From NCBI GenBank assembly GCA_012728015.1, contig JAAYFY010000037.1, positions 62,001 to 126,000 on the forward strand: 64,000 nt of DNA, read 5' to 3'. Numbering within the stretch: the stretch's first letter is position 1; each line of letters begins with the position of its first letter. The notes below the pieces were generated by a model. That model had not been told where the DNA came from, ran no database searches, and was given only the letters and a program-made list of their open reading frames with translations. Of this stretch, positions 22,365 through 64,000 are shown piece after piece. A program made the position numbers and the translations under genes. The stretch is from Clostridiaceae bacterium (GTDB lineage Bacteria > Bacillota > Clostridia > DSM-8532).

Positions 22365-22392
22365 TGAACCTGTGAGGCCGCAGCACGTCTAA
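22365..22392 (+). promoter_or_regulatory. ECF-sigma type promoter of the serpin gene
   Basis: TGAACC (22365-22370), 15 nt spacer, CGTCTAA (22386-22392), giving a predicted start about 37 nt before the serpin ATG. The AAC-N16-CGTC geometry is the classical ECF sigma pattern. The same arrangement precedes the alpha-2-macroglobulin gene (58846-58872, minus strand). Confidence 0.65.
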
Positions 22393-22434: not shown

Positions 22435-23697
22435 ATGGATCAATACTTGGAGACCGCCGTAAAAAAAGGCGCAAAAATGGTTCTGGCCGCTGTCCTTATC
22501 ATGGCATTCCTTCTTGCGGGATGCGCGACGGGAAGAAGCGCATATGCTTTTTTACCATCAGATGTGACCCATATCCCGTTGGATGACTCCATCATCATGG
22601 ATATCAACGATCTGGGTCTTAACACCTTAAGGCTTATCAATGAGGACGATACCGAAGGCAGGAACATGATCATATCCCCCGTAAGCCTTTCAACCGCGCT
22701 TTCTATCCTGAACAACGGCGCCGCCGGCACCACACGCGATGAGATCAACGGCCTGATCAACACCCGGGGAGTTACCCAGGACGGGTGCAACGGCAAATAC
22801 AGGGACCTTATCAGCAGCTTCTACAACAGGAAAGACGTTACGATACTCCCGGCCAACTCCCTGTGGGTGAACAAGGAATATCGTGTTAAGGAGAGCTTCA
22901 TTGAACTTGCCAGGGCCTGGTACGATGCAGAAGTGTTTTCCCTCAACGTCAAGTCCCCTTCGGCGGTAAACCAGGTCAACAAGTGGATATCAGACAAGAC
23001 AAAGGATTTTATCACAAATCCCGTCAGCGGTATAGACCCCGATACCATAATGCTCATAGTCAATACCTTGTACTTCAAGGGGGCCTGGATCGATGAATTC
23101 AACAAAGAATGCACCGAAAAGGAGGACTTTACTCTGGGCACGGGAGAGACCGTGCAGGCTGACATGATGAACGGCCAGTTCAGGGTTCCCTATTATAACG
23201 CGGGGGACTTCAAGGCCGCAAAACTCCACTACGAGGGCGGAGTATCCATGCTCCTCCTGCGTCCGGAAGGCGATGTCAATGAGCTTGTGGAAAGTCTTTC
23301 GGCGGATATGCTCCTTGATATAAACGACAGGCTCAAACCCTTCAAAACCAATCTCAAGGTGCCCAAATTAAGCTACGGTTTCAGGGACGAAATGAGCGGA
23401 TACCTGAAAAAGCTGGGGATGGTTGATGCCTTTAGCGGTTCGGCCGACTTCAGCGGGATGGTGGAAGACACTGAAGCCCGGGTAAACCGCGTGCTTCATG
23501 AATGCAGGATAGAGCTGGATGAGGAAGGTACCATCGCTGCTGCCGCAACAGTTATAGAAAAGACCGGCGTGAGCGCCATGACCGAACCTGAGGAAATCAT
23601 GGACTTCTACCTGGATAAGCCCTTTGTGTTTGCCATTATGGACAACCAGACCGGTGCGGTCTTTTTCCTGGGTAAGGTCGAAAACCCGGCCCAGTAA
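22435..23697 (+). CDS. Serpin-family protease inhibitor, lipoprotein
   Basis: A 420-residue protein with a lipoprotein signal (lipobox LAGC, Cys30) and a full serpin fold: NMIISPVSLSTALSILNNGAAGTT, NTLYFKGAWIDEF, LKVPKLSYGF and the C-terminal KPFVFAIMDNQTGAVFFLGKV. The reactive-loop hinge is of inhibitory type, EEGTIAAAAT (residues 363-372). Counting the usual 17 residues from P17 places the scissile bond at Val379-Ser380, which would suit an elastase-like enzyme. It would trap proteases outside the cell at the membrane surface. ATG 22435 follows AGGAGG. It has its own ECF-type promoter and terminator, so it is monocistronic. Confidence 0.93.
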   Translation: MDQYLETAVKKGAKMVLAAVLIMAFLLAGCATGRSAYAFLPSDVTHIPLDDSIIMDINDLGLNTLRLINEDDTEGRNMIISPVSLSTALSILNNGAAGTTRDEINGLINTRGVTQDGCNGKYRDLISSFYNRKDVTILPANSLWVNKEYRVKESFIELARAWYDAEVFSLNVKSPSAVNQVNKWISDKTKDFITNPVSGIDPDTIMLIVNTLYFKGAWIDEFNKECTEKEDFTLGTGETVQADMMNGQFRVPYYNAGDFKAAKLHYEGGVSMLLLRPEGDVNELVESLSADMLLDINDRLKPFKTNLKVPKLSYGFRDEMSGYLKKLGMVDAFSGSADFSGMVEDTEARVNRVLHECRIELDEEGTIAAAATVIEKTGVSAMTEPEEIMDFYLDKPFVFAIMDNQTGAVFFLGKVENPAQ

Positions 23698-33455: not shown

Positions 33456-33980
33456 ATGCAGGATTATGAGATTGTCAGGCTCTGCCTCCAGGGCAGGACA
33501 GAATTCTTTGAGAGATTGGTCGACCGGTACCAGAAGCTTGTTTATTCGTTGGCCATGACCAGACTGAAGGACCCGTATCTTGCCGAGGATGCTGCCCAGG
33601 AAGCCTTCGTGAAAGCTTACAGGCATCTTGCTTCTTATAATCCGGAATATAAGTTCTCAACCTGGATTGCCCGTATAACAGCAAATACCTGCACTGATCT
33701 CTTGAGAAAAAGAAAGGGTTTTTACCCTGTTGACAGTGCCCCCGAAGCGACCGATCCTGAAGGCACGCCCGAGCAGCATGTGATAACCAGGGAGACCAAA
33801 AAAAGGCTTGAAACCCTCATAGACGGCCTTAGCCCCAAGTATAAACAGCCGCTGATGCTTTACCATATATCAGGAATGAAATATGACGAGATAGCGGAAT
33901 ATTTGAAAGTCCCTATGAGCATAGTAAAAAACCGGATATACAGGGCAAGAAAAATGCTGAGGGAGGCAATGGAGGATTGA
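33456..33980 (+). CDS. ECF RNA polymerase sigma factor
   Basis: A 174-residue group 4 sigma factor: region 2 (DRYQKLVYSLAMTRLKDPYLAEDAAQEAFVKAYR... FSTWIARITANTCTDLLRKRK) and region 4 (KYKQPLMLYHISGMKYDEIAEYLKVPMSIVKNRIYRARK). It resembles SigW-type factors. ATG 33456 follows AGGGGA; the frame is open further upstream without support. The next gene, 4 nt away, encodes its likely ZAS anti-sigma factor. Its regulon is unknown; it is an alternative candidate for the ECF-type promoters at 22365 and 58846. Confidence 0.92.
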   Translation: MQDYEIVRLCLQGRTEFFERLVDRYQKLVYSLAMTRLKDPYLAEDAAQEAFVKAYRHLASYNPEYKFSTWIARITANTCTDLLRKRKGFYPVDSAPEATDPEGTPEQHVITRETKKRLETLIDGLSPKYKQPLMLYHISGMKYDEIAEYLKVPMSIVKNRIYRARKMLREAMED

Positions 33981-33984
33981 TGCC

Positions 33985-34533
33985 ATGAAGAAATGCATAA
34001 CCCCCAGGGGCTATAACCGGATTCTTGAAGATATGCCGGACCCGCGATTCCTTTCAAGGCTCGAAGCCCACTGCAGGGATTGCGAAAAATGCGCCCGGGA
34101 GATGGAATCATGGAAGGAATTAAAGGATATGCTCGGCAGCGCATCTGGTATAGCCATGCCTGACGGTTTTAAGAAAAAGGTTATGTCCCGTATTGACGGC
34201 GAAAGGATCCTTCCCGCTCAGCCAGCCGGCGGCTCAAGGCGTTTTCTGGCGGCTGCCATGGTCTTTATGGCTGCACTTTACAGTATCTTCCGCCCGTACC
34301 TGCGGCCCCTGCTCTCCGGTATGGTTTCCCGCCTTTTTCAATCGCTGTCGGTCTTGTTTTATAACTTCTTAAGCTCCATAGGGATTGATCCCGGCGTGTT
34401 TATCAGGTTACTTGGCAATACCATGGCCAACCTCCCCAGGATATTTCCTTTCTTCATGGCTGGCACGGCACTGACAACAGTAGTCTTTCTCCTTTTGATA
34501 CTGAGAGGAAGAGCGGCACGCCAGTCGGGCTGA
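33985..34533 (+). CDS. Zinc-binding (ZAS) anti-sigma factor, membrane-bound
   Basis: A 182-residue protein with an N-terminal H-x3-C-x2-C motif (HCRDCEKC, about residues 29-36), the ZAS hallmark. A span at about residues 80-95 and further hydrophobic segments to about residue 174 place the sigma-binding domain in the cytoplasm. It presumably holds the upstream ECF sigma at the membrane until a signal releases it. Confidence 0.85.
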   Translation: MKKCITPRGYNRILEDMPDPRFLSRLEAHCRDCEKCAREMESWKELKDMLGSASGIAMPDGFKKKVMSRIDGERILPAQPAGGSRRFLAAAMVFMAALYSIFRPYLRPLLSGMVSRLFQSLSVLFYNFLSSIGIDPGVFIRLLGNTMANLPRIFPFFMAGTALTTVVFLLLILRGRAARQSG

Positions 34534-40896: not shown

Positions 40897-41214
40897 ATGT
40901 TTGAATTGGTTGTGGGCAGCAGTGAGGACAGCGGAAAGGTAATACTGCTTCGCGGTGAAATTGACATCTATTCAGCTCCGGACTTCAAGGATAGCCTGTT
41001 TCAGGCAATGGGGGATTGCAGTGAGGATATTGTTCTGGATTGCTCCGAGTTAAGCTACATAGACAGTATGGGGCTTGGTATTATGGTAGCCGCCTTGAAG
41101 CGCGCAAGGCAGAATGACCGCAATATAAGGATCAGGAATCCCAAACCCAATGTAAAAAAACTGTTCAGGATCACGGGGCTTGATAAAGTTTTCATTGTGG
41201 AGGAATTGAAATGA
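40897..41214 (+). CDS. STAS-domain anti-anti-sigma factor
   Basis: A 105-residue STAS domain (RGEIDIYSAPDFKDSL, then DCSELSYIDSMGLGIMVAALK). Ser57 in IDSMG is at the position phosphorylated in SpoIIAA/RsbV. When unphosphorylated such proteins bind the anti-sigma kinase and free the sigma factor. It overlaps the next gene by 4 nt (ATGA). Confidence 0.9.
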   Translation: MFELVVGSSEDSGKVILLRGEIDIYSAPDFKDSLFQAMGDCSEDIVLDCSELSYIDSMGLGIMVAALKRARQNDRNIRIRNPKPNVKKLFRITGLDKVFIVEELK

Positions 41215-41597
41215 AACCATCGGATACGGTATCAGTCCTTATCCCTCCAAAGGCCGAGTACGTCAGTATTGTCCGGCTGACCGCCTCCGGCGTAGCCAGC
41301 AGGATGGGATTCGATATAGACGATATAGAAGATATCAAGGTATCCATCTCGGAAGCCATCAACAGGATGATAGACAAAGGTACCTCTCCGGATGGTATCA
41401 AAATTGATTTCCATCTGTACAGCGATGTTATCAGGATTGACTTCAGGCTTTCAGGCAGTTCACCCAAGGATATTTTTGAAAGCGAAAGAGATGGCTTTGC
41501 TTTTGAAATTATCCGTGCCTTAATGGATGAGGTGATACTGAACCCGGATGACCATGTGCTGTTATCCATGACAAAAAGGCTTGAAAGGGCTGTCTGA
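41211..41597 (+). CDS. RsbW/SpoIIAB-like anti-sigma protein with degenerate ATP site
   Basis: A 128-residue GHKL-fold protein. The N-terminal half (PPKAEYVSIVRLTASGVASRMGFDIDDIEDIKVSISEA) is typical of RsbW. The nucleotide motifs are not: the N-box reads SEAINRMID without the usual Asn/His spacing, no DxGxG box is seen, and the lid reads DGFAFEII instead of a Gly-rich loop. It may still bind a sigma factor but probably does not phosphorylate the STAS protein. The sigma gene follows at once. Confidence 0.78.
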   Translation: MKPSDTVSVLIPPKAEYVSIVRLTASGVASRMGFDIDDIEDIKVSISEAINRMIDKGTSPDGIKIDFHLYSDVIRIDFRLSGSSPKDIFESERDGFAFEIIRALMDEVILNPDDHVLLSMTKRLERAV

Positions 41598-41598
41598 G

Positions 41599-42357
41599 AT
41601 GAGCAAAAAACAGGAATCCTCTGAAAACATCGAGCGTACAGAAAAAGAGCTGTTTGAGGCCTACCGCGAAAACCGTGATTTGGCCACCCGAAATGAGATT
41701 ATCTCCCGATACATGTATCTTGCCGATATCATCACCAAGAAATTCGCCAACAGGGGTGTTGATAGTGATGATATCTATCAGGTTGCCTGCGTGGCGCTGA
41801 TCAATGCTGTTGAACGTTTCGATCCCGACGCCGAAGTGAAGTTTGTCAGCTTTGCCACGCCCACCATCATTGGTGAAATCAAGCGGTATTTCCGGGATAA
41901 GGCCTCGGTCATACGCATACCCCGGCGCATATATGAGGTCTACCAGAAAGTGAACCAGGCCCGCGAATACCTGATGCAGAGGCTTAAACGGGCGCCCAGG
42001 ATAGATGAGATCGCCGACTATCTTAAAATGAAGGAAGAAACTATCCTTGAGATCATTGAGTCCTGGAATGTCTATAATATCCAGTCCTTTGACCAGACAG
42101 TTTTTGAAGAGGACGACCTGGAACTGCATGAGACTGTGGGGCAGGACGATGAAACCTTTGAAAGGATCAATAACCGCGATTTTCTTGAAAAGGCCATGGA
42201 GAATTTCAACCAGGCTGAGAAACTTTTTATAAAGCTTCGGTTCTTTGAGAATAAAACACAAAAGGATATCGCGAAACACTTCAATGTATCCCAGATGTAC
42301 ATATCGCGCCTGGAGAAAAGAACTCTCGAAAAATTCCGCTATATTTTAAAGAAGTGA
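41599..42357 (+). CDS. SigB/SigF/SigG-subfamily RNA polymerase sigma factor
   Basis: A 252-residue group 3 sigma factor: region 2 (YRENRDLATRNEIISRYMYLADIITKKF, DIYQVACVALINAVERFDPD, FVSFATPTIIGEIKRYFRDK), region 3 (IPRRIYEVYQKV) and region 4 (FFENKTQKDIAKHFNVSQMYISRLEKR). It is embedded with STAS and anti-sigma genes, so partner switching should control it. It may be a stress sigma (SigB-like) rather than the spore SigF or SigG, but sequence alone does not settle this. ATG 41599 is chosen over TTG 41581. Confidence 0.9.
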   Translation: MSKKQESSENIERTEKELFEAYRENRDLATRNEIISRYMYLADIITKKFANRGVDSDDIYQVACVALINAVERFDPDAEVKFVSFATPTIIGEIKRYFRDKASVIRIPRRIYEVYQKVNQAREYLMQRLKRAPRIDEIADYLKMKEETILEIIESWNVYNIQSFDQTVFEEDDLELHETVGQDDETFERINNRDFLEKAMENFNQAEKLFIKLRFFENKTQKDIAKHFNVSQMYISRLEKRTLEKFRYILKK

Positions 42358-42436
42358 AAAGTGGGTAAATATATTAGAGAGTTTTCAGATTCAGAGTGTA
42401 ATCCTGTTTGCTCCCCGAGCGGAGGAATATTTAGGT

Positions 42437-42889
42437 ATGAGTGTCAAGCAAAAAGAAGGTATAAAAATATATAGCGAAATGATAAGCAGCGATGCCTTTG
42501 AGGTATGCCGGCAGGTTAAGGTTATACTGGGCAGGCTTGAGAGGGTTCCAGGCATCGATGCGGATCAGCAGTTTGATATAAGGGTGATTCTGAGCGAACT
42601 TCTTCAGAACGCCATCAGGCACGGAAACGCCAATGACAGCAATAAAAAGGTGCTCATTGATGTCTGGTATCATGATGACAGCCGTATTCTATCCATATGT
42701 GTGACCGACCAGGGACAGGGCTTTGATGTAAAGCGCATCATAGAATGCAGGGAAAAATCCGGTTGCGATGCCTTGGCCATGGATGAGTCAGGCAGAGGAT
42801 TATACATCGTTCAGAGCCTTTGCGATGACATACAGTTCAACCCCGTGGGCAATGCCATAACGGTCAGAATGTGGTTGGATTCTCACTGA
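42437..42889 (+). CDS. GHKL-type serine kinase/anti-sigma regulatory protein (RsbW-like)
   Basis: A 150-residue protein with intact ATP motifs: N-box SELLQNAIRHGN (Asn58), G1 DQGQGFD (91-97) and G2 GRGLYIV (119-125). It is thus the catalytically competent counterpart of the degenerate protein two genes upstream and may be the kinase for the STAS protein. It is followed by a terminator that ends the cluster. Confidence 0.85.
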   Translation: MSVKQKEGIKIYSEMISSDAFEVCRQVKVILGRLERVPGIDADQQFDIRVILSELLQNAIRHGNANDSNKKVLIDVWYHDDSRILSICVTDQGQGFDVKRIIECREKSGCDALAMDESGRGLYIVQSLCDDIQFNPVGNAITVRMWLDSH

Positions 42890-53794: not shown

Positions 53795-56700
53795 TCAGGG
53801 CAGAATTCTTATCACGGTGCTATCGTTGACAGTCAGGCTGGATTTTACTATGGAACCCTGCGCCACTGTGCCTTCGGCCGTGTATTCACCGGGCGCGGCA
53901 ACCCTTGCGTAGTATGTCAGCGGCTTGTAATTGTGAGTCTTATCATACCACTTGCCTACCACAAAGGTTACCTTCTGGCCGTCGATATTCCTGTAGAACC
54001 ATCCGAAATCCCTTGTAATGCCATAAGACCAGGGATTTGAAATGGGCTTCAGTCCGGAGGGCGCATAATCCGAAATCTCATATATGTTATCGATGGCCGC
54101 GTCTTTGATGGTGTAATCTATCTGGACCTTCACGATGTCATTGGGCTTGAAAGTGGTGGTCTCCTCACCTGTGATGGCGTTGAAGTACCTCCTTGTTATT
54201 GTCACATTGCTGTCGCTTTCCGCGATCCGGCCCAGCGGCGCCTTATAAATGGACATAATGGAAGCGTTGCCCTGGACCCGGGTTACCTTGAATTCTCCGG
54301 CCTTAACCGAAGGAATCCTGATAAGTTCGCACCCTCCATTCTCAAGCTTCACCTGGAAACTTCTGCCGTCGTAGGTAAAATCAAATTCCACCGAGTCACC
54401 GGCAGCCGCTTTAAGCCTCTCCGACAGGTAGATCAGCTGCTCAACGCCTGTATATACATTTTTGGAATACCTGCTGGTGACATAAGCGTGCATCTTGTCG
54501 GATTCTTCAAGACCCAGCCCGGCGGTGAAGGCGGCCAGCAGTGCGGTCTGTTCCAGGCTGGTGTCGGTATCCCCATTCTTCACCCGTACGCGGATGTAGG
54601 GATCCACGATCTCAAGGTGGCCCTTGATACGGGTGTTATATATCTCCATGGCTATGCCTGTTTCGCCCAGCATACGGTAAGCCATGCCCACGAACATGTA
54701 ATCGGTCAGTGAAAGGTTCTCGGTATTCAGCGCTGTTTCCAGTTCGGCAAGTACAGGTTCACCCAGGGCCACAAGGCCGTAAAGAGCCGGCGCGTTAATG
54801 GTTTCATCGGTAAGAAGAGCGTTATAGAAATATAACTTAAGTGAAGTTGTGTCAGTCACTTCGGCAAGCCAGGGTGTCAGAAGGGCCGACATCCTGATAT
54901 CACTCGTGGAGTAGGGCAGGATACCGTATCCTCCGTCCGGGTTCCTGTAGCTCGGGGCATCGGGATCGAAGGATTCATAAAGGAAATCCTGGTCGTCCAG
55001 GAGCTCGTTCAGAAGCTTCCGGGCATGATATGCCGTGAGCTTCTGGTCCAGCCTGTGGCCGTAACCCCAAGCCAGACCGTGGAGCCCGGCGATGAGCCTG
55101 CCGCGTCCCTTATCCGTGATGATAATCGTGGTCAGACCGCTGTCGCCGGCATCCACCTTAACGCCCGGCACCAGTTCCTTGCTAGACGATGCTTCCATAA
55201 TGCGATAGGTGTCGTAAACCCGTATTGTCCTTTTGATACCGTCGGCAAAGCCGCTTTTGCTCCTGGCGTAGATCTCCAGGTCGTAAGTGCCTTCCGGCAG
55301 CCTGGGAAGCGGAACATTCACCCGCTGGAAGGCTTTTGCCGAGGCGGTCAGTACATAGTTGTCAAGTTCTTTGCAGCGGATTTCAAAATGTACGTCTTCG
55401 CCTTCCTCAAGCTCCTGTCCGTATGCTGTCAGCCCGATATAGGGCTTATCGCCAGAAAGATAGGTAAGGCTCATGGCATCGTTGATGAAGAATGGCATGG
55501 ACACCCTGGTTGAGGCGATTTCCGATCCCGCGTGCAAATCGTTGGAAATAGCAGCGGCTGTCAACTTGAAAGAGGTAACGCTGTCGGGAAGGGTGAAGGT
55601 CAGTTTCCCCTTTCCGTTCTCATCCAGCCGGACAGTTTCAAAACAGGCCGTGTCCCTGAAGTCTGAGCGAAGGGCAACTCCGTCAGAAATACTTCCGTCC
55701 ATATAGGCTTCAGGAGCGGCCGACGGTGCCGGCACCGGCGCTGCGTCTGCCTTTTGCACCGCCGTATCGGCAGCTTCACCTACCACACCGAAACCCTCCT
55801 CTGCTCTGGCAGGGTATATGGGGTTGTTTCTGCGGCTGGTGCTGTACCGGGTGATACCGCTTCCTATCCAGGAGTAAAGCTGCTTTAGGGGATCTATATA
55901 CTGCTCCGAGAGCTTAAGAAGGGCTTCATCTATAAGGGAGATGTTCACCATGGCCTCAACCGGATTGCCATTGAGATCCGATGCCGTGATGGTAACTGTG
56001 CAGGATTCGCCGGGTTTATAGCTCTCCTTGTCGGTTTCAACTTTTATCGTGAGTTTCTTTTCCTCGTAATCATAGGCGACAGTACAACCTGAGCGGATGT
56101 AGGCGGTACCGGTAAACATGACCCCGTCCACATAGTAGTTGGGAGATAAGGCAGCGTCAAAAGGTTTGCTGTATACAGGCTGATCCTTTACCTCGGCTCC
56201 CAGGATGCCGTTTCTGGCTTCTACAAAGAGGGTCCTGTAACCGGATACAGGCTCCTCACCCTTGTAGAATTCAAGGTTCACCAGTTCCCCTGAAATGTAG
56301 CGTTCCTTTTCGGATTTCAGATAATAGTAATTATCGCTGGTTGAAGGGTAATAGGGCGTTGAACGGTCATAGAGGTTTATATTGTACTTTAGCCCTCTGT
56401 CCTTTTGGTCCCGGGAAGTTATTTCGGCTATATAATAGCCTTCCAAATCCTTATCCACAGGGAATGCAAAGCTTGCGCGGCCGTCGGCGTCGGTGATCAG
56501 CGTACTGTTGGTGACCGCTGTCTTCCTCTCCCGGTATTCGTAACGCTTGCGGACAACTTTATTTATAAAATCATAATCCTCACCGATCTCTATCTTATCC
56601 CAGGTAATCCTGTAAACCCTTACTTCGGCGCTGTGCCCGGGAACCACCCGGCCCAGATGCTTATCATTGGACGGGTCTTCATCGTTCAATGTATCGAGTT

Positions 56701-58798
56701 CCACCTGGTGGGCAATAACCGACACGGTGGCGTTCCCGTCCTTGATTTCACCACTGGCAACCAGTTCGGTATGATTTGCGAATACCCGGAAATTGTGGTA
56801 CTGATATATTTCCCCGATCTCAGGGAGCGTGGTGGAAACGCTGAAGCTGAAATAGTTGGCCCCCTGCATTCCCGCGTGATACTCAGGGATGTATTCCACT
56901 GTCAGAATGCCGTTCTGATCAGTTACACCCTCCCCGGCTTTATGGTTCATGTACCCGTTGATACTGTACCTTATGGGAACATTGGAAACAGGAGTGCCGT
57001 CGAAGAAAGTGGCGCTTACTGTGAAACTGATCTTCTCGCCGGCAAACACCGCCTTTTTATCGGAGTTGATGGCCAGTTGATATTGAGGCTTTACATAGTT
57101 ATCCACCTGTACATACGTGGAAGCCAGGATTTTACTGCCGGACCTGACAACCAGGCTGTATGAGCCGGGATCCAGTATGGGAAGCTGAAGCTCGCCGCTG
57201 AAAAAGCCGTCCTTAACATCCAGGGCGAGAGTTGCCATGGGCTTACCCATTACGAAAGGAAGAAAGCTCCGGACGAAGCTGTCGTACATGGGACTGAAAT
57301 ATCCGCCTTCCGAAAGCTCTATTGTGACCTTGTCCGGAGAGGTGTCATCTATCCTGCTTTTTACAAAGCCCCAGAACTGAACCAGGTCGTCAGGCTTGTA
57401 GAGGTTGCGGTCGGTCTGAAGATAGTGCCAGTTAAGGCCCTGGCTGTCATACTCATTTTGGTAGAGCACATAGAGATAGCCTGCGTTCAGAAGGGAGACC
57501 CTGCCATCGGAGGTGGTGATCTTGTAGAAATCCATCCTGGTCAAATCCTTGCCCGCCGAAGTTCCCTCAAGCCTGGCAAGTCCTTTTCGGTCGGTTCTTG
57601 CTGTCCTGCCTGTTTCGGTGTCTTTAATAACGGCCGATACAGAAGGCTCTCCGGTAACCAGGTTATTTACCCAGAACAGGCCTCCTGAACTGTCTTCCAT
57701 GAAGAATGCCGCTGTATCTGACGATTGGATGAAGGCCTGTGCCGACAGGTCTTCACAAGTCAGCTCTATGATATAGAATCCGTGGGGAAGGCTTTCGGGA
57801 AGCATAATGTACCTGGAGTCCCAGGAATCCAGGTTGTAGTATTGGGTGAACTCCATCACCTTCTCCAGGGAGGAAACATCAGTTTTCAGCCTGCTGTAGG
57901 AATACCAGGCCCAGGACGGCACCCTATCCCTTTCCCTTATGGCATTAATCAGGGCATCCTCGTTTGGGAAGCGGTAGACAGATGCCTTCACCGGCACGTC
58001 CTTCTGTCCCCTCATGCCGGTAAGATAGATATAGAATGGTATGACGGGCTGTTCCCGGGTTGAAAAATCGAACCAGATATCAGAAATCCCAAGACTGCCG
58101 GGGGAGGGGTCTGCCGTCAAAGAGCTGTCAGAGCTGGTTTCAAATGAAAATGTATAGTCCTCCTCAAGGGCAAGGGCACCTTTTGCCGCTCTGAGCCCTT
58201 TTTTGACCGTAACCGTATAGATGGTCCCCGGTTCCAGCTTTTTGGGGACAAAACAACGGGCGTATCCGTGTTCCTCAAACCTGCCTTCAACTTTGGGGGA
58301 TATCTCGAAGTATTTCTCGATATCCTCCACGTCGTTATATGTGAAATAGATCTCTATTCCCGTATCGACAGGAACACTGGACGACATGTCCTGCGGAAGG
58401 CTGCCGACAACCGCGAACTCCCTCGCTGTCTGGAAGGCAAAGCTCACAGTTGATCGGTCAGGCGTCTTTATATCAATTACATAAAGCCTGCCTTTTTCCA
58501 GTTTTTCCGCGGGCTTGATCAGGAACCTTCCATCAGGCAGTTCGGATATTTCGGGTGCCGCGTGTCCCCGTATACAAAGGTTTTCCTTTAAATAATCCAG
58601 TGAAACGGGGTTCTGGGATGTGAGGTAAAACTCGGTGTCCAGGGCAATTCCTGAATCGTCGTATTTCGACGCTGTTATCGAAAAGCCACCCTTATAGATA
58701 TCCGCCCTGGCCTCAACACTTCCCCATGGGTTGGAAACCCATAACACTGAAACGCTTATTGCCAGGATCAGGATCACGGCTGCCAGTTTGTTCCGCAT
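53795..58798 (-). CDS. Alpha-2-macroglobulin-like secreted protein, no thioester motif
   Basis: A 1667-residue exported protein. The signal peptide has a hydrophobic core at residues 5-21 and an AxA-type site (EARA/D) near residue 32. Macroglobulin-type beta domains follow, with the family motif TDRNLYKPDDLVQFWG (about residue 466). An Ala/Pro-rich flexible stretch near residues 1010-1025 (KADAAPVPAPSAAPEA), in the bait-like position, precedes the A2M domain (FRDTACFETVRLDENGKG..., about residue 1050). Where thioester members have CxEQ, it reads HRLDQ (about residue 1246), so no covalent trap is expected. C-terminal beta domains finish the protein. I chose ATG 58798, behind AGGAGGTGG; the frame extends to 58882. 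An ECF-type promoter lies just upstream. Confidence 0.88.
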   Translation of the reverse strand: MRNKLAAVILILAISVSVLWVSNPWGSVEARADIYKGGFSITASKYDDSGIALDTEFYLTSQNPVSLDYLKENLCIRGHAAPEISELPDGRFLIKPAEKLEKGRLYVIDIKTPDRSTVSFAFQTAREFAVVGSLPQDMSSSVPVDTGIEIYFTYNDVEDIEKYFEISPKVEGRFEEHGYARCFVPKKLEPGTIYTVTVKKGLRAAKGALALEEDYTFSFETSSDSSLTADPSPGSLGISDIWFDFSTREQPVIPFYIYLTGMRGQKDVPVKASVYRFPNEDALINAIRERDRVPSWAWYSYSRLKTDVSSLEKVMEFTQYYNLDSWDSRYIMLPESLPHGFYIIELTCEDLSAQAFIQSSDTAAFFMEDSSGGLFWVNNLVTGEPSVSAVIKDTETGRTARTDRKGLARLEGTSAGKDLTRMDFYKITTSDGRVSLLNAGYLYVLYQNEYDSQGLNWHYLQTDRNLYKPDDLVQFWGFVKSRIDDTSPDKVTIELSEGGYFSPMYDSFVRSFLPFVMGKPMATLALDVKDGFFSGELQLPILDPGSYSLVVRSGSKILASTYVQVDNYVKPQYQLAINSDKKAVFAGEKISFTVSATFFDGTPVSNVPIRYSINGYMNHKAGEGVTDQNGILTVEYIPEYHAGMQGANYFSFSVSTTLPEIGEIYQYHNFRVFANHTELVASGEIKDGNATVSVIAHQVELDTLNDEDPSNDKHLGRVVPGHSAEVRVYRITWDKIEIGEDYDFINKVVRKRYEYRERKTAVTNSTLITDADGRASFAFPVDKDLEGYYIAEITSRDQKDRGLKYNINLYDRSTPYYPSTSDNYYYLKSEKERYISGELVNLEFYKGEEPVSGYRTLFVEARNGILGAEVKDQPVYSKPFDAALSPNYYVDGVMFTGTAYIRSGCTVAYDYEEKKLTIKVETDKESYKPGESCTVTITASDLNGNPVEAMVNISLIDEALLKLSEQYIDPLKQLYSWIGSGITRYSTSRRNNPIYPARAEEGFGVVGEAADTAVQKADAAPVPAPSAAPEAYMDGSISDGVALRSDFRDTACFETVRLDENGKGKLTFTLPDSVTSFKLTAAAISNDLHAGSEIASTRVSMPFFINDAMSLTYLSGDKPYIGLTAYGQELEEGEDVHFEIRCKELDNYVLTASAKAFQRVNVPLPRLPEGTYDLEIYARSKSGFADGIKRTIRVYDTYRIMEASSSKELVPGVKVDAGDSGLTTIIITDKGRGRLIAGLHGLAWGYGHRLDQKLTAYHARKLLNELLDDQDFLYESFDPDAPSYRNPDGGYGILPYSTSDIRMSALLTPWLAEVTDTTSLKLYFYNALLTDETINAPALYGLVALGEPVLAELETALNTENLSLTDYMFVGMAYRMLGETGIAMEIYNTRIKGHLEIVDPYIRVRVKNGDTDTSLEQTALLAAFTAGLGLEESDKMHAYVTSRYSKNVYTGVEQLIYLSERLKAAAGDSVEFDFTYDGRSFQVKLENGGCELIRIPSVKAGEFKVTRVQGNASIMSIYKAPLGRIAESDSNVTITRRYFNAITGEETTTFKPNDIVKVQIDYTIKDAAIDNIYEISDYAPSGLKPISNPWSYGITRDFGWFYRNIDGQKVTFVVGKWYDKTHNYKPLTYYARVAAPGEYTAEGTVAQGSIVKSSLTVNDSTVIRILP

Positions 58799-58845
58799 GA
58801 TTCTCCACCTCCTGTAAAAACTGTTGGGATATACCTCATATATAT

Positions 58846-58872
58846 TAGACGGTAATGCCATCATTTGGTTTG
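58846..58872 (-). promoter_or_regulatory. ECF-sigma type promoter of the macroglobulin gene
   Basis: On the minus strand, CAAACC (58872-58867), 15 nt spacer, CGTCTA (58851-58846) continuing as CGTCTAATA. The predicted start is about 40 nt before ATG 58798. It matches the spacing and -10 of the serpin promoter at 22365-22392, and AAAC-N16-CGTC is a classical ECF pattern. Confidence 0.68.
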
Positions 58873-58915: not shown

Positions 58916-61900
58916 TTAATCAGCAAAGTTCAAGCCGTCGAATACATCCCGGGCCTGCAGCCCGGTGCCCCCGATGAACATGTAGTCGTATACCTCCAGC
59001 CAGCCATTGCGGCCATCGGGTGTCTGGAACAGGCACCATCTCTGGTTGTCACTGCCCACAAAATAGACGCTTTCTCCCTGGTTCAGCACAAAGGAAACAT
59101 CACTGCTGCCGGGCGATACGGTAAACGGCAGGGATTCAATTTTCAGCTTCAGCGGGCCCGCATCCCTGTACCCGATTTTCTCATAAAACGCGCTGGGTAC
59201 CTCAACCAGCTTATGCTGCATGTTCAGGCGGTATTCCCTGGTAAAGAACCAGGTCTCAAAAATATCTCCCCGGGTCAGGGAGCGTACGGAGCCATCGCCC
59301 CTCACGGCATCGGTGTTCCCGCACAGACCCTGTACCTTGCCCATGAGGACGAGCTTTTCACCGTCATAATAGTAGAATGTGCTCATAAAGCCGCCGCTGT
59401 TACCATGTTCCTCAATAACTATTTCATAATAGGAATCCAACAGGTCTATATCTACCAGCTTGTACTGGGACTGTACTCCAAATCCATGGCCATCAGCCTT
59501 GCTTTGGTTCACGGTCAGGGTGTATCTGCTGCCATCGGTGGTAAAACTTATCCTGTCCTGGATACCGTCACCATTGATATCAAGATTGCCCGCTTCTTCA
59601 GGAGGAGATACTGCTGTTCCGCTGCCGGGAAGGTATATATCCTGTTCCCTGACCCAGCCGGACATGCCGCTTAAAAGCGCGACATGAAGGAACCCGTTCT
59701 CAGCTTCCCCCGTCAGGTTTACGAAGGCGTCGGTTCCGGTTCTGGCCATATAGTCGGTGAAATCCGATACGTGGCTGGAATTCGGATCCGGTTCGCTGTA
59801 AACGGTACTCCTGCTCTTTAAATAAGCCTGGTTGAAATAGACTCGGTCAAAGTCGGTTGTATAGCTGTTATTACTGATCCAGCCCGTAATTCCGAAGTTG
59901 CTGTCAGTGGTGTCGGGAATGACATAACTCTTGTCTTCTCCCTTAATAATGACGCGGATCAGGTTCCCCTTGTCCAGGGATATCTTGGACAGCCTGACCT
60001 TGTCGGCGGTTATAATACCTGCGGGCAGGCTGTAACGGTCATAAAAATGTATGTTCTCGGCGCGTATCCAGAAGGAATTGCGCGTATCGTAATAGCTGAC
60101 CATGCCCGATACTTTCTGGGCCAGGCACCAGCCGTTAACCACCCTGGTATTATAGATTATGATCTCATTCTCCTTAATCTCACCTATATCGGTATAGTTG
60201 TCCCCGGGGCCGTTCTTTACCTTGCAGGCGGTTTTCACATAGGACTCCACCTTGCTTCCGGTGGCCTTGTCGGTTTCATATATTGTCTCTTTCCCATTGT
60301 CCTGGGGAGGCCTCTGGACAGGCGGGATGGAGCTTGACGAGCCTGGTTCATCGGTGTTAAGGACAGGCTCTTTATCGACAGAGCGATAGATCTCCTTTAC
60401 CTCGCCAGTCAGGACATTTATGGTATAGATCGACAATTCACCAGCCTGGGGCTCTTCTTCGTCAACCATGCGGACAAAAGCGATATTCTCTTCGTCAACC
60501 CAGCTCGTATGACGGGGCGCCAGCGTGCTGTATCCAGGTATGTGGGGCGTGGTCACGCTGCCCTCTGAAACTATTAGGAAAGATCGGTCATTATCGAACA
60601 TGACCCGCGCGCCCGAAGGCGTGGTCATGCACCAGGGAAGCAGATCGGTCTTCATTTCTCTGCTTGTGTTAAAGACTTTGAGGTTTGCGGTCCGCATGTT
60701 CATTGTCCCGGAATATCCGTTCCTCATCCTGAACACAAGATGGCTGCCCACAAGGCGGTAATCGGTGATATATGTGTCCAGGAGCCCCCCGTTTCCGGCC
60801 GCGAAGCCGGGATCAATGGCGACATCCTGGTCACTTCCGATAACATGTTTCATAATCACGCCATTTAAGACATACCAGACCGTACTCGAATCGGGATTGA
60901 TATAAAAGGGTTCGTGCCGGACAGTTTCAGACTTCCATGCGTTGTCGCCCGCATAGGCTGTCATCACCATATCCCCCGTGAAGACTCCTACTCCGCCGTT
61001 GCCGGTGACGTAAAGGCTTCTTACAGGGGCATTTGATTCCATCTCCTCCAGCCTCAGGGTCTGCATATCTAGCAGAAATATGGTGCCTGCTTTGTTCCTG
61101 GCGGCATACACCAGGTAATTGCCGCCAGGCGCCCAGGCATGAACCACCTGATCCATGCCCAGCTCGGACAAACGGTAGAAACTTCGGTCCGATACGTTGA
61201 AAAGGTAAACTCCCTGGCCTTCGGATGTTCCATCCTCCCTGGCGGAAATGCCGGCGACCAGGAACTCTCCTGTCGGTGAAAAGCTGAACTGTGCTTCAGG
61301 GGATTCACCGCCCCCTCCCAGGCCAAAACTGTCCAGGTCAATCAACTGGTAAAATTCGCCGTTACTCCAGCAGGCTGCGATGTGGCTGTTCCGCATTACA
61401 ATCCTGTTTCCATTGGCATGAACCACCTGCCAGGAAGCGTCACCCATTTCATTGAGCCTGGCAACAAGCTCATCGCCCGATAAAAGGCCGCCAGCGGCCG
61501 TGAATGTAATGGAAGTACCGGTGTTTTCAGCAGAGGGAATGTCTGCGCTGGCCGGCTGTTCTTCTTTGTCGAAGATGGTCATAACTGAATCCCAAAAGGG
61601 TTTTGAAATACTCGGGATAATCAATAAGCACAGAAGGATTATCCCTAGGGCAATGGAGGCTGCGGTGGGCCATATTCTCCGCAGTGAGTTGGGGCTGATA
61701 AGCAGCTTCCAAAAGCCAGGAGCGGGGCAGCCATTACTCTCAATCAGGCTCATAATGGAGTCAACAGGCACCAGGCCGCAGGAGACCTCCTTTTTTATTT
61801 TGCCTGCAAGCCGACCGGCAGCCCCGGGCGGCAGGCTTGCCCCAAAAACATGCTCAATAATGTATTTCCGTGCCCTGACCATCCTCATCCTGACAGAGCT

Positions 61901-62347
61901 CACTGAAAGTCCGAATATACGACCTATTTCCCGGAGATGTAAGCCGTTGTGATAATGCAGGATGAACATGGATCGAGCTTCATCATGGATGGGATCGAGA
62001 AGGGAGTTTAAGGATTCATCCTCCTCAGGTTCTCTGTCCGGAAGCAGAAACTCCGGGATATCAGGATGGAAAGCAACAGGCTGGGGATGCCTGCGCTTAT
62101 GGCTCAGAGCCATACCGGTTGCCACCTTATAGAACCAGGTGGAAAATGCCCACCGGTCATTGTACCGGTACAGGCTGCGGTATACATTAAGAAAGATCTC
62201 ATGTGCAAGATCCCGGGACTGGGAAGCGGGAATTCCCATTTTTATCAGGAACCCGTAAAGCCCGGGATAGTAAGATGTTATAAGTTCTCTGAAGGCCTCG
62301 GTTTCACCCTCAAGTACCTTTTTTGCAAGCAGCCTGTCATTGATCAT
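58916..62347 (-). CDS. Membrane-anchored ECF sigma factor fused to extracytoplasmic sensor domains
   Basis: A 1143-residue single polypeptide. Residues about 10-85 are sigma region 2 (EAFRELITSYYPGLYGFLIKMG, RDLAHEIFLNVYRSLYRYNDRWAFSTWFYKVATG). Residues 118-165 are region 4 (DEARSMFILHYHNGLHLREIGRIFGLSVSSVRMRMVRARK). A single span lies at about 228-247. The outer part has propeller-like repeats (about 330-640, with FSFSPTGEFLVAG and AWAPGGNYLVYAAR units), SH3-like segments (near 690-760, 840-920 and the C-terminus) and an NLDINGDGIQDR calcium-type motif. ATG 62347 follows GGGGAG. The frame is continuous, with no join artefact visible. The macroglobulin gene follows 118 nt later. Confidence 0.87.
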   Translation of the reverse strand: MINDRLLAKKVLEGETEAFRELITSYYPGLYGFLIKMGIPASQSRDLAHEIFLNVYRSLYRYNDRWAFSTWFYKVATGMALSHKRRHPQPVAFHPDIPEFLLPDREPEEDESLNSLLDPIHDEARSMFILHYHNGLHLREIGRIFGLSVSSVRMRMVRARKYIIEHVFGASLPPGAAGRLAGKIKKEVSCGLVPVDSIMSLIESNGCPAPGFWKLLISPNSLRRIWPTAASIALGIILLCLLIIPSISKPFWDSVMTIFDKEEQPASADIPSAENTGTSITFTAAGGLLSGDELVARLNEMGDASWQVVHANGNRIVMRNSHIAACWSNGEFYQLIDLDSFGLGGGGESPEAQFSFSPTGEFLVAGISAREDGTSEGQGVYLFNVSDRSFYRLSELGMDQVVHAWAPGGNYLVYAARNKAGTIFLLDMQTLRLEEMESNAPVRSLYVTGNGGVGVFTGDMVMTAYAGDNAWKSETVRHEPFYINPDSSTVWYVLNGVIMKHVIGSDQDVAIDPGFAAGNGGLLDTYITDYRLVGSHLVFRMRNGYSGTMNMRTANLKVFNTSREMKTDLLPWCMTTPSGARVMFDNDRSFLIVSEGSVTTPHIPGYSTLAPRHTSWVDEENIAFVRMVDEEEPQAGELSIYTINVLTGEVKEIYRSVDKEPVLNTDEPGSSSSIPPVQRPPQDNGKETIYETDKATGSKVESYVKTACKVKNGPGDNYTDIGEIKENEIIIYNTRVVNGWCLAQKVSGMVSYYDTRNSFWIRAENIHFYDRYSLPAGIITADKVRLSKISLDKGNLIRVIIKGEDKSYVIPDTTDSNFGITGWISNNSYTTDFDRVYFNQAYLKSRSTVYSEPDPNSSHVSDFTDYMARTGTDAFVNLTGEAENGFLHVALLSGMSGWVREQDIYLPGSGTAVSPPEEAGNLDINGDGIQDRISFTTDGSRYTLTVNQSKADGHGFGVQSQYKLVDIDLLDSYYEIVIEEHGNSGGFMSTFYYYDGEKLVLMGKVQGLCGNTDAVRGDGSVRSLTRGDIFETWFFTREYRLNMQHKLVEVPSAFYEKIGYRDAGPLKLKIESLPFTVSPGSSDVSFVLNQGESVYFVGSDNQRWCLFQTPDGRNGWLEVYDYMFIGGTGLQARDVFDGLNFAD

Positions 62348-62515: not shown

Positions 62516-62545
62516 ATTATAATATTCATTGGGAGCCCCAGACAA
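62516..62545 (-). promoter_or_regulatory. Possible sigma-A promoter of the sigma-fusion gene
   Basis: On the minus strand, TTGTCT (62545-62540), 18 nt, TATAAT (62521-62516). The leader would be about 160 nt. Confidence 0.5.
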
Positions 62546-62686: not shown

Positions 62687-64000
62687 TGAGGGTTAAACTT
62701 GACGACGCACTGCTTTTGCAGGTTGAAAAACCTGCCAAATATATAGGCAACGAATGGAATATGGTAAAAAAGAACCCCGAAAGCGTGGCGGTTCGTTTTG
62801 CTTTTGCCTTTCCTGATGATTATGAGATCGGCATGTCCCATATGGGTATGAAAATCCTCTATCACATCCTCAACAAAAGGGAGGACACCTACTGCGAAAG
62901 GGTTTTCGCGCCGTGGGTCGATATGGAGCGACTCATGCGGGGAAAAGGCCTGCCCCTTTATACCCTTGAAACCTACACTCCCATTTCCGAGTTTGATATT
63001 ATAGGCTTTACCCTGCAGTACGAAATGAGCTATACAAATATCCTCAACATGCTGGACCTGGGCGGGGTTCCGGTTCTGGCAAAGGACAGGGAGAAAAGCC
63101 ACCCGTTTGTCTGCGCGGGCGGACCATGCGCGGTCAATCCCGAACCCCTTGCCGATTTTATTGATTTCTTTGTCATAGGCGAAGGTGAAGAAGTGATCCA
63201 GGAGATCATTGACGGGTACAAGGCCTGGAAAGCCTCAGGGCAGGACAGGACCGCATTTCTGGAACGTGTCGCCGCCATAGAAGGGGTATATGTTCCTTCC
63301 TTGTATGAAGTCTTATACTATGAGGATGGAACCATCATGGACATCATGCCGAAATCCGGGAATGTTCCTGACACAGTTAGAAGGCGCATTGTCGCCGACC
63401 TGGACAAGGCGAGTTTCCCGGATGATATCATTGTTCCCTACGTCGAAACCGTTCACGACAGGATTATGCTGGAACTGTTCCGCGGCTGCATCCGGGGCTG
63501 CAGGTTTTGCCAGGCCGGTTTTATCTACAGGCCTGTCAGGGAAAGGTCTCCGGAAAAGCTCAATGAGCTGGCCAGAAGTTCGGTCAGGAAAACGGGCTAT
63601 GATGAGATATCACTGGTTTCGCTGAGTTCCAGCGATTACTCAGCCCTGCCCGAATTCTGCGAGAAATTACTCGAGTTTTCCGAGAAAGAGCGTGTAAACC
63701 TGTCCCTGCCGTCCCTAAGGGTGGACAATTTCTCCCTGGGTCTTATGGAACGGGCTTCCAAAGTCCGCAAAAGCGGACTTACCTTTGCGCCGGAAGCAGG
63801 GACTCAAAGGCTCAGGGATGTCATCAACAAAGGCATAACCGACGAGGACCTGAAAGCATCGGTACAGCTGGCTGTTGCGGGCGGATGGAATTCTGTAAAG
63901 CTTTATTTCATGATTGGCCTTCCCACAGAAACCATGGAGGATGTGGAAGGAATCGCCGATTTGGGGTTCAGCCTGATCGAATCATGCAGGGGCATTGCCG
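62683..64000 (+). CDS. B12-binding radical SAM protein (TIGR03960-like), 3'-truncated
   Basis: The frame is open to the end of the window (439 residues visible). An N-terminal cobalamin-binding-like region (VEKPAKYIGNEWNMV, FAFPDDYEIGMSHMG, FVIGEGEEV) is followed by the radical SAM cluster FRGCIRGCRFCQAG (three cysteines, CxxxCxxC). GYDEISLVSLSSSDYS, LPSLRVDNFS, TFAPEAGTQRLRDVINKGI and FMIGLPTET also match the family. In Clostridia this gene usually precedes rplU-rpmA or rng genes, outside this window. Function unknown. ATG 62683 or 62686 may be used. Confidence 0.9.
   Translation, partial: MMRVKLDDALLLQVEKPAKYIGNEWNMVKKNPESVAVRFAFAFPDDYEIGMSHMGMKILYHILNKREDTYCERVFAPWVDMERLMRGKGLPLYTLETYTPISEFDIIGFTLQYEMSYTNILNMLDLGGVPVLAKDREKSHPFVCAGGPCAVNPEPLADFIDFFVIGEGEEVIQEIIDGYKAWKASGQDRTAFLERVAAIEGVYVPSLYEVLYYEDGTIMDIMPKSGNVPDTVRRRIVADLDKASFPDDIIVPYVETVHDRIMLELFRGCIRGCRFCQAGFIYRPVRERSPEKLNELARSSVRKTGYDEISLVSLSSSDYSALPEFCEKLLEFSEKERVNLSLPSLRVDNFSLGLMERASKVRKSGLTFAPEAGTQRLRDVINKGITDEDLKASVQLAVAGGWNSVKLYFMIGLPTETMEDVEGIADLGFSLIESCRGIA

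Follow-up and report, generated by a model that had tools for sequence, protein, structure and literature searches.

A conserved ECF-type promoter points to a protease-inhibitor regulon in a clostridial lineage

Introduction

Serpins and macroglobulins, proteins of an immune type, are puzzling when they occur in bacteria, where their natural role is unclear. Here we analyse a stretch of 64,000 nucleotides (hereafter the window) from a Clostridiaceae bacterium of genus g1, in which a serpin gene and a macroglobulin gene are preceded by similar ECF-type promoter motifs. In the open literature that we searched, no ECF regulon holding both a serpin and a macroglobulin is described.

The closest described systems are the autoregulated regulons of SigW/SigM type in Firmicutes, each built on an ECF sigma factor and a membrane anti-sigma factor. 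The motifs studied here share with them AAC in the -35 box and CGT(C) in the -10 box, which are the canonical ECF boxes (PMC8103513). The likeness extends to an ECF gene that has these boxes ahead of its own start and is followed by a gene for a one-helix membrane protein, and to targets of the cell envelope. Among the inhibitors, the macroglobulin resembles the type II protein MagD of Pseudomonas aeruginosa, which likewise has no CxEQ motif, has a bait-region domain, is extracytoplasmic and, although it has no thioester, still traps a protease (PMC5764988). A third predicted inhibitor, found outside the window, resembles Clostridium thermocellum Chte0880 and other SLH-IPI (BsuPI) proteins in its signal peptide, SLH domain and BsuPI domain (PMC3901451). 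The standing of BsuPI as a true inhibitor is disputed; it was dropped from MEROPS, and whether it is an inhibitor or a competing substrate is unclear (PMC3901451).

Results

Two predicted ECF-type promoters in the window

The predicted promoter of the macroglobulin gene lies on the minus strand at 58845..58870, with the -35 box AACC at 58870-58867, a spacer of 15 nt and the -10 box CGTCTAA at 58851-58845. Read on that strand from 58870 to 58845 it is AACCAAATGATGGCATTACCGTCTAA, 46 nt ahead of the ATG at 58798. The predicted promoter of the serpin gene lies on the plus strand at 22367..22392, follows the pattern (TG)AACC-N15-CGTCTAA, reads AACCTGTGAGGCCGCAGCACGTCTAA and stands 42 nt ahead of the ATG at 22435. 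These are the only two matches of AACC-N14..17-CGTCTA in the window, where 0.21 were expected and at least two occurred in 1 of 100 shuffles; for AACC-N15/16-CGTCTAA an iid estimate gives 0.06 expected matches (P=0.0017). Five further strings in the window fit AACC-N16-CGTC, and none of them continues with TAA. Counted from AAC, both sites read AAC-N16-CGTC and the orthologous sites have N16 or N17, in agreement with the 16-17 nt between AAC and CGT in ECF promoters. The first-pass annotation had described AACC-N15-CGTCTAA before both genes, had found no third such site in the window and had called the sites ECF promoters; the sites and their uniqueness are confirmed, and boxes, spacing and orthologous position all fit the predicted promoter type.

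Conservation at orthologous positions

That annotation had also proposed a genome-wide search for the motif, which failed by raw counts in the congeners and succeeded by orthologous position. AACC-N15/16-CGTCTA has 11 matches in the bacterium's own genome against 6 for the reversed control, and four congeners show no excess (5 against 8, 7 against 7, 7 against 14 and 4 against 19). We therefore dropped genome-wide counts as evidence and used orthologous positions instead. More than half of the congener sites (13/23) precede the macroglobulin gene (4), the serpin gene (3), a gene for an SLH-BsuPI protein (4), a walR-like gene (1) or a DUF4349 gene (1).

The macroglobulin promoter, AACC-N15/16-CGTCTAAT, is found in 5/5 genomes of genus g1 and in 7/7 surveyed genomes of the sister genus g2, and the strict form AACC-CGTCTAA precedes the gene in 5/5 congeners and 7/7 sister-genus genomes. 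Further GTDB loci of the clade, where they include enough upstream DNA, keep it as well, except for L270, a relative 39% identical. The serpin promoter is kept in all four congeners that have the serpin gene, and sister-genus serpins have AACT in place of AACC. In alignments of the leaders the two boxes form conserved islands, and the rest has diverged.

We surveyed loci from many genera for GAAC-N16/17-CGTC or AACC-N15/16-CGTC within 260 nt upstream, with an opposite-strand and a mirror control. An ECF-type promoter precedes 23/24 macroglobulin genes (0/24 in both controls) and 20/29 serpin genes (0/29 in both controls). We infer from this conservation that transcription starts from both sites in the window.

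Predicted targets are inhibitors of unrelated folds

The macroglobulin gene (53795..58798, minus strand) encodes a predicted exported alpha-2-macroglobulin-like protease trap with an N-terminal hydrophobic segment and A2M_BRD, A2M and MG domains. It has no CxEQ thioester, the site reading RLDQ, and this places it among the type II bacterial macroglobulins. The predicted exported serpin (22435..23697, plus strand) matches Pfam Serpin over its full length (7e-95), consistent with a serpin fold. With its lipobox-like LLAGC it looks like a lipoprotein, and its hinge, EEGTIAAAAT, reads as one of the inhibitory type.

Outside the window, a promoter site at G000:C39:11423-11447 and its counterparts in 5/5 congeners precede the gene of an exported protein that combines an SLH domain with a BsuPI proteinase-inhibitor domain (PF12690, 82.7 bits, cut-off 22.9), which looks as if it attaches to the cell wall through SLH. 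In the sister genus a BsuPI gene occurs in just one of the genomes searched, G011, and has GAACT-CGTCTATT ahead of it. A GAACC-CGTCAAA variant precedes genes for PrcB_C-domain proteins in the single genomes G022 and G002, and also a DUF4349 gene in G000. Together, the macroglobulin, the serpin and the SLH-BsuPI protein, three unrelated inhibitor classes, consistently stand behind a common promoter, joined by PrcB proteins in single genomes.

Recurrent targets of other kinds are a walR-like response regulator gene, with the motif 148-575 nt away, and in g2 a gene for a DUF4015 putative glycosidase. The DUF4015 protein, a membrane-anchored putative glycosyl hydrolase, is found repeatedly behind the motif in the sister genus (L165, L170, L172, L178), and in G016, G020 and G022 the motif before DUF4015 and the macroglobulin gene are no more than about 5-15 kb apart.

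ECF-C71 is the better candidate sigma factor

A 179-aa ECF sigma factor, ECF-C71, is encoded at G000:C71:47393-47929, unlinked to the macroglobulin and serpin loci, and its gene is followed by that of a one-helix protein in which a Pfam search found no recognised anti-sigma domain. Within g1 and g2 ECF-C71 largely occurs alongside the promoters, whereas more distant genera keep related promoters without it: orthologues occur in 4/5 genomes of g1 and 13/14 of g2, and were not found in G003 (a 90% complete assembly in which the promoters are kept) or G029 (81% complete). As a check on true loss in G003 we considered the gene flanking ECF-C71, which is absent from G003 and also from G004.

AACC-N15/16-CGTC precedes the gene of each of the 18 ECF-C71 orthologues checked, as it would an autoregulated gene. 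The -10 box there is CGTCAAA in 17 and CGTCATA in one, compared with CGTCTAA at the inhibitor genes. Both forms interchange at orthologous genes, namely at the DUF4349 genes (G000, L283, against G003 and G022, L045 and L162) and at the sister-genus serpin (G020, L073, against G011, G023 and G024, L071, L076 and L082), so one sigma factor probably reads both. Judged by its sequence and distribution, ECF-C71 is a better candidate for the shared promoters than the sigma-like protein encoded beside the macroglobulin gene, and it is most likely the factor that reads them in g1, the genus Thermoclostridium of T. caenicola, and in the sister genus.

In many g1 and g2 genomes a GAAGGAG...CTCCTTC complementarity spans the Shine-Dalgarno sequence and first codons of the ECF-C71 mRNA (G000:C71, L190:1497-1560). 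A conserved RNA hairpin over this ribosome-binding site was set aside as weak, with folding z-scores of only -0.1 to -2.1.

Other ECF and sigma genes

The same observations could arise if the sites were generic and read by several overlapping ECF factors (ECF-C71, the tethered protein described below, family B and others), in which case they would belong to a broad envelope-stress response and there would be no dedicated regulon. We take this as a real possibility, though one that we would not favour. It would account for the walR-like, DUF4349 and DUF4015 genes among the targets and for genera outside the range of ECF-C71: more distant genera without ECF-C71 have related GGAAC-CGTC promoters before macroglobulin and serpin genes, so another ECF factor must serve them. 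Family-B ECF genes of genus g7 (L199, L200, L204) carry GAACC/GAACT-CGTCAAAA upstream, which also suits shared reading; L200 has in addition a AAACGTTT-CGTATT element near its start, and these elements suggest cross-regulation between ECF factors. Against generic sites, the inhibitors are the most consistently conserved targets, and the remaining ECF families that we examined in the genus have elements that can be told apart, or none at all. The ECF factors of families A, B, C, D and E, and those confined to G003, have no AACC/CGTC(T/A)AA upstream and were rejected as readers of the motif. Upstream of the family-B gene stands CAAC-CGTATTA, and upstream of the family-D gene the partly similar GGTAAC-CGTCAAT, seen in only two genomes with near-identical DNA.

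The window itself holds a family-C ECF gene (33456..33980, plus strand) with a sigma-A-like TATAAT upstream, followed by a gene for a one-helix protein with an HxxxCxxC-like motif (33985-34533, plus strand). The pair (33456-34533) sits between the serpin and macroglobulin genes, and family C is not a preferred candidate because it has no regulon motif of its own. A further sigma factor with regions 2-4 is encoded at 41581-42357 (plus strand), before an HATPase_c_2 anti-sigma-kinase-like gene at 42437-42889; the pair (41211-42889, plus strand) resembles a SigB-type partner-switching module and is distinct from a SigF-like gene on contig C21.

The tethered sigma-like protein

Next to the macroglobulin gene, a gene at 58916..62347 (minus strand) encodes a tethered ECF sigma-like protein, whose ORF holds sigma regions 2 and 4 (residues 35-205, approximately), a single hydrophobic segment (258-286) and a large C-terminal part that matches SH3_3 weakly. 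This protein might read the shared promoters, perhaps freed by extracytoplasmic proteolysis, so that protease attack would induce the inhibitors. Its gene is adjacent to that of the macroglobulin on the same strand, with synteny kept in all five congeners; its one-helix, sensor-like architecture would suit such induction; and it is present in G003, where no ECF-C71 was found. We nevertheless consider this reading unlikely, and rejected the protein as reader of the motif. A search of 61 genomes found no fused orthologue outside g1, yet the seven surveyed sister-genus genomes, and further GTDB loci of that clade with enough upstream DNA, keep the promoter before the macroglobulin gene, where other genes are found upstream and the tethered sigma is missing. 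The promoter of the tethered sigma gene itself is sigma-A-like (62516..62545, minus strand; TTGTCT at 62545-62540, N18, TATAAT at 62521-62516), is conserved in 5/5 genomes of g1 and contains no AACC/CGTCTAA element, so that no sign of autoregulation is seen there. The region 2.4 Asn shared by every other aligned ECF factor is replaced in the tethered protein by G, S or other residues, and SVRMRM takes the place of TVKSRL in its recognition helix. These region 2.4 and 4.2 recognition residues vary between species (MAYDRF and SARMRM in T. caenicola). Nothing beyond adjacency ties the protein to the shared promoter; its residues suggest a sigma factor that may have degenerated or taken on another role, though it may still serve other promoters.

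An AACC-N16-CGTC string at 62701-62724 (minus strand), kept in most congeners, lies antisense within the first part of a gene that diverges from the tethered sigma gene. The divergent gene is radical-SAM-like by eye, and we attribute the conservation of the string to coding constraint.

The first-pass annotation had joined the two inhibitors in one envelope regulon, an idea that our data support and that the SLH-BsuPI and PrcB-domain proteins would widen; its proposal that the tethered sigma controls this regulon is not supported, in view of the sister genus, the sigma-A-like promoter and the lost region 2.4 Asn.

As to mere chance likeness of two motifs in intergenic DNA, the motifs are short and degenerate and raw genome counts are not enriched in the congeners, but this explanation is next to impossible given conservation at orthologous positions with zero matches in both controls, the islands in the alignments and the promoter before the macroglobulin gene in 7/7 sister-genus genomes.

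Discussion

Our main reading, to which we give a probability of about 0.65, is that both sites truly work as promoters and belong to a single ECF regulon concerned mainly with controlling proteases outside the cytoplasm, with ECF-C71 most likely as its sigma factor. An ECF-controlled protease-inhibitor regulon is well supported by this comparative evidence, and cells of this heat-loving clostridial lineage probably turn on inhibitors of several kinds together, as one shield against proteases.

We picture the regulon working as follows. Envelope damage would inactivate a membrane anti-sigma factor, for which the one-helix protein encoded downstream of ECF-C71 is the candidate, and so free the ECF factor. 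The freed factor would recognise AACC(-35)-N15/16-CGTC[T/A]AA(-10) and transcribe its own operon plus scattered inhibitor genes. The macroglobulin trap, the exported serpin and the SLH-attached BsuPI-type inhibitor would each form a transcription unit of their own, and the factor would also transcribe walR-like and DUF4349 genes, together with PrcB-domain genes in single genomes. The sites of action of the products would be the membrane, the extracytoplasmic space and the S-layer. Induction may be triggered by proteolysis or by other damage to the envelope; since the targets are protease inhibitors, proteolytic attack is the obvious guess. Tentatively, we go one step further and suggest a dedicated anti-proteolysis response, in which the ECF/anti-sigma pair would sense proteolytic damage to the envelope and induce the macroglobulin, the lipoprotein serpin, the S-layer BsuPI protein and the PrcB proteins. 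If so, it would parallel, in bacteria, the inhibitor arm of the acute-phase response in animals, and it would be conserved through a clostridial lineage.

The conserved common promoter suggests that serpin, macroglobulin and BsuPI protein act jointly as one inducible surface defence, and it names a candidate sigma factor for the inhibitor genes. It is also independent functional evidence placing BsuPI among protease inhibitors, and so bears on the dispute over its status (PMC3901451).

Set against known systems, the proposed regulon differs in its parts and in their combination. Chte0880-type proteins have three repeats, whereas the protein described here has one SLH match and one BsuPI match and is tied to an inhibitor regulon (PMC3901451). 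The P. aeruginosa mag genes form a six-gene operon, whereas the macroglobulin gene here is a single Gram-positive gene with an ECF-type promoter, predicted to be co-controlled with a serpin and a BsuPI protein (PMC5764988). Compared with regulons of SigW/SigM type, the most conserved targets here are three unrelated classes of protease inhibitor. ECF regulons as such are known; what appears to be new, judged by the open literature that we searched, is one whose most conserved targets are protease inhibitors of unrelated folds.
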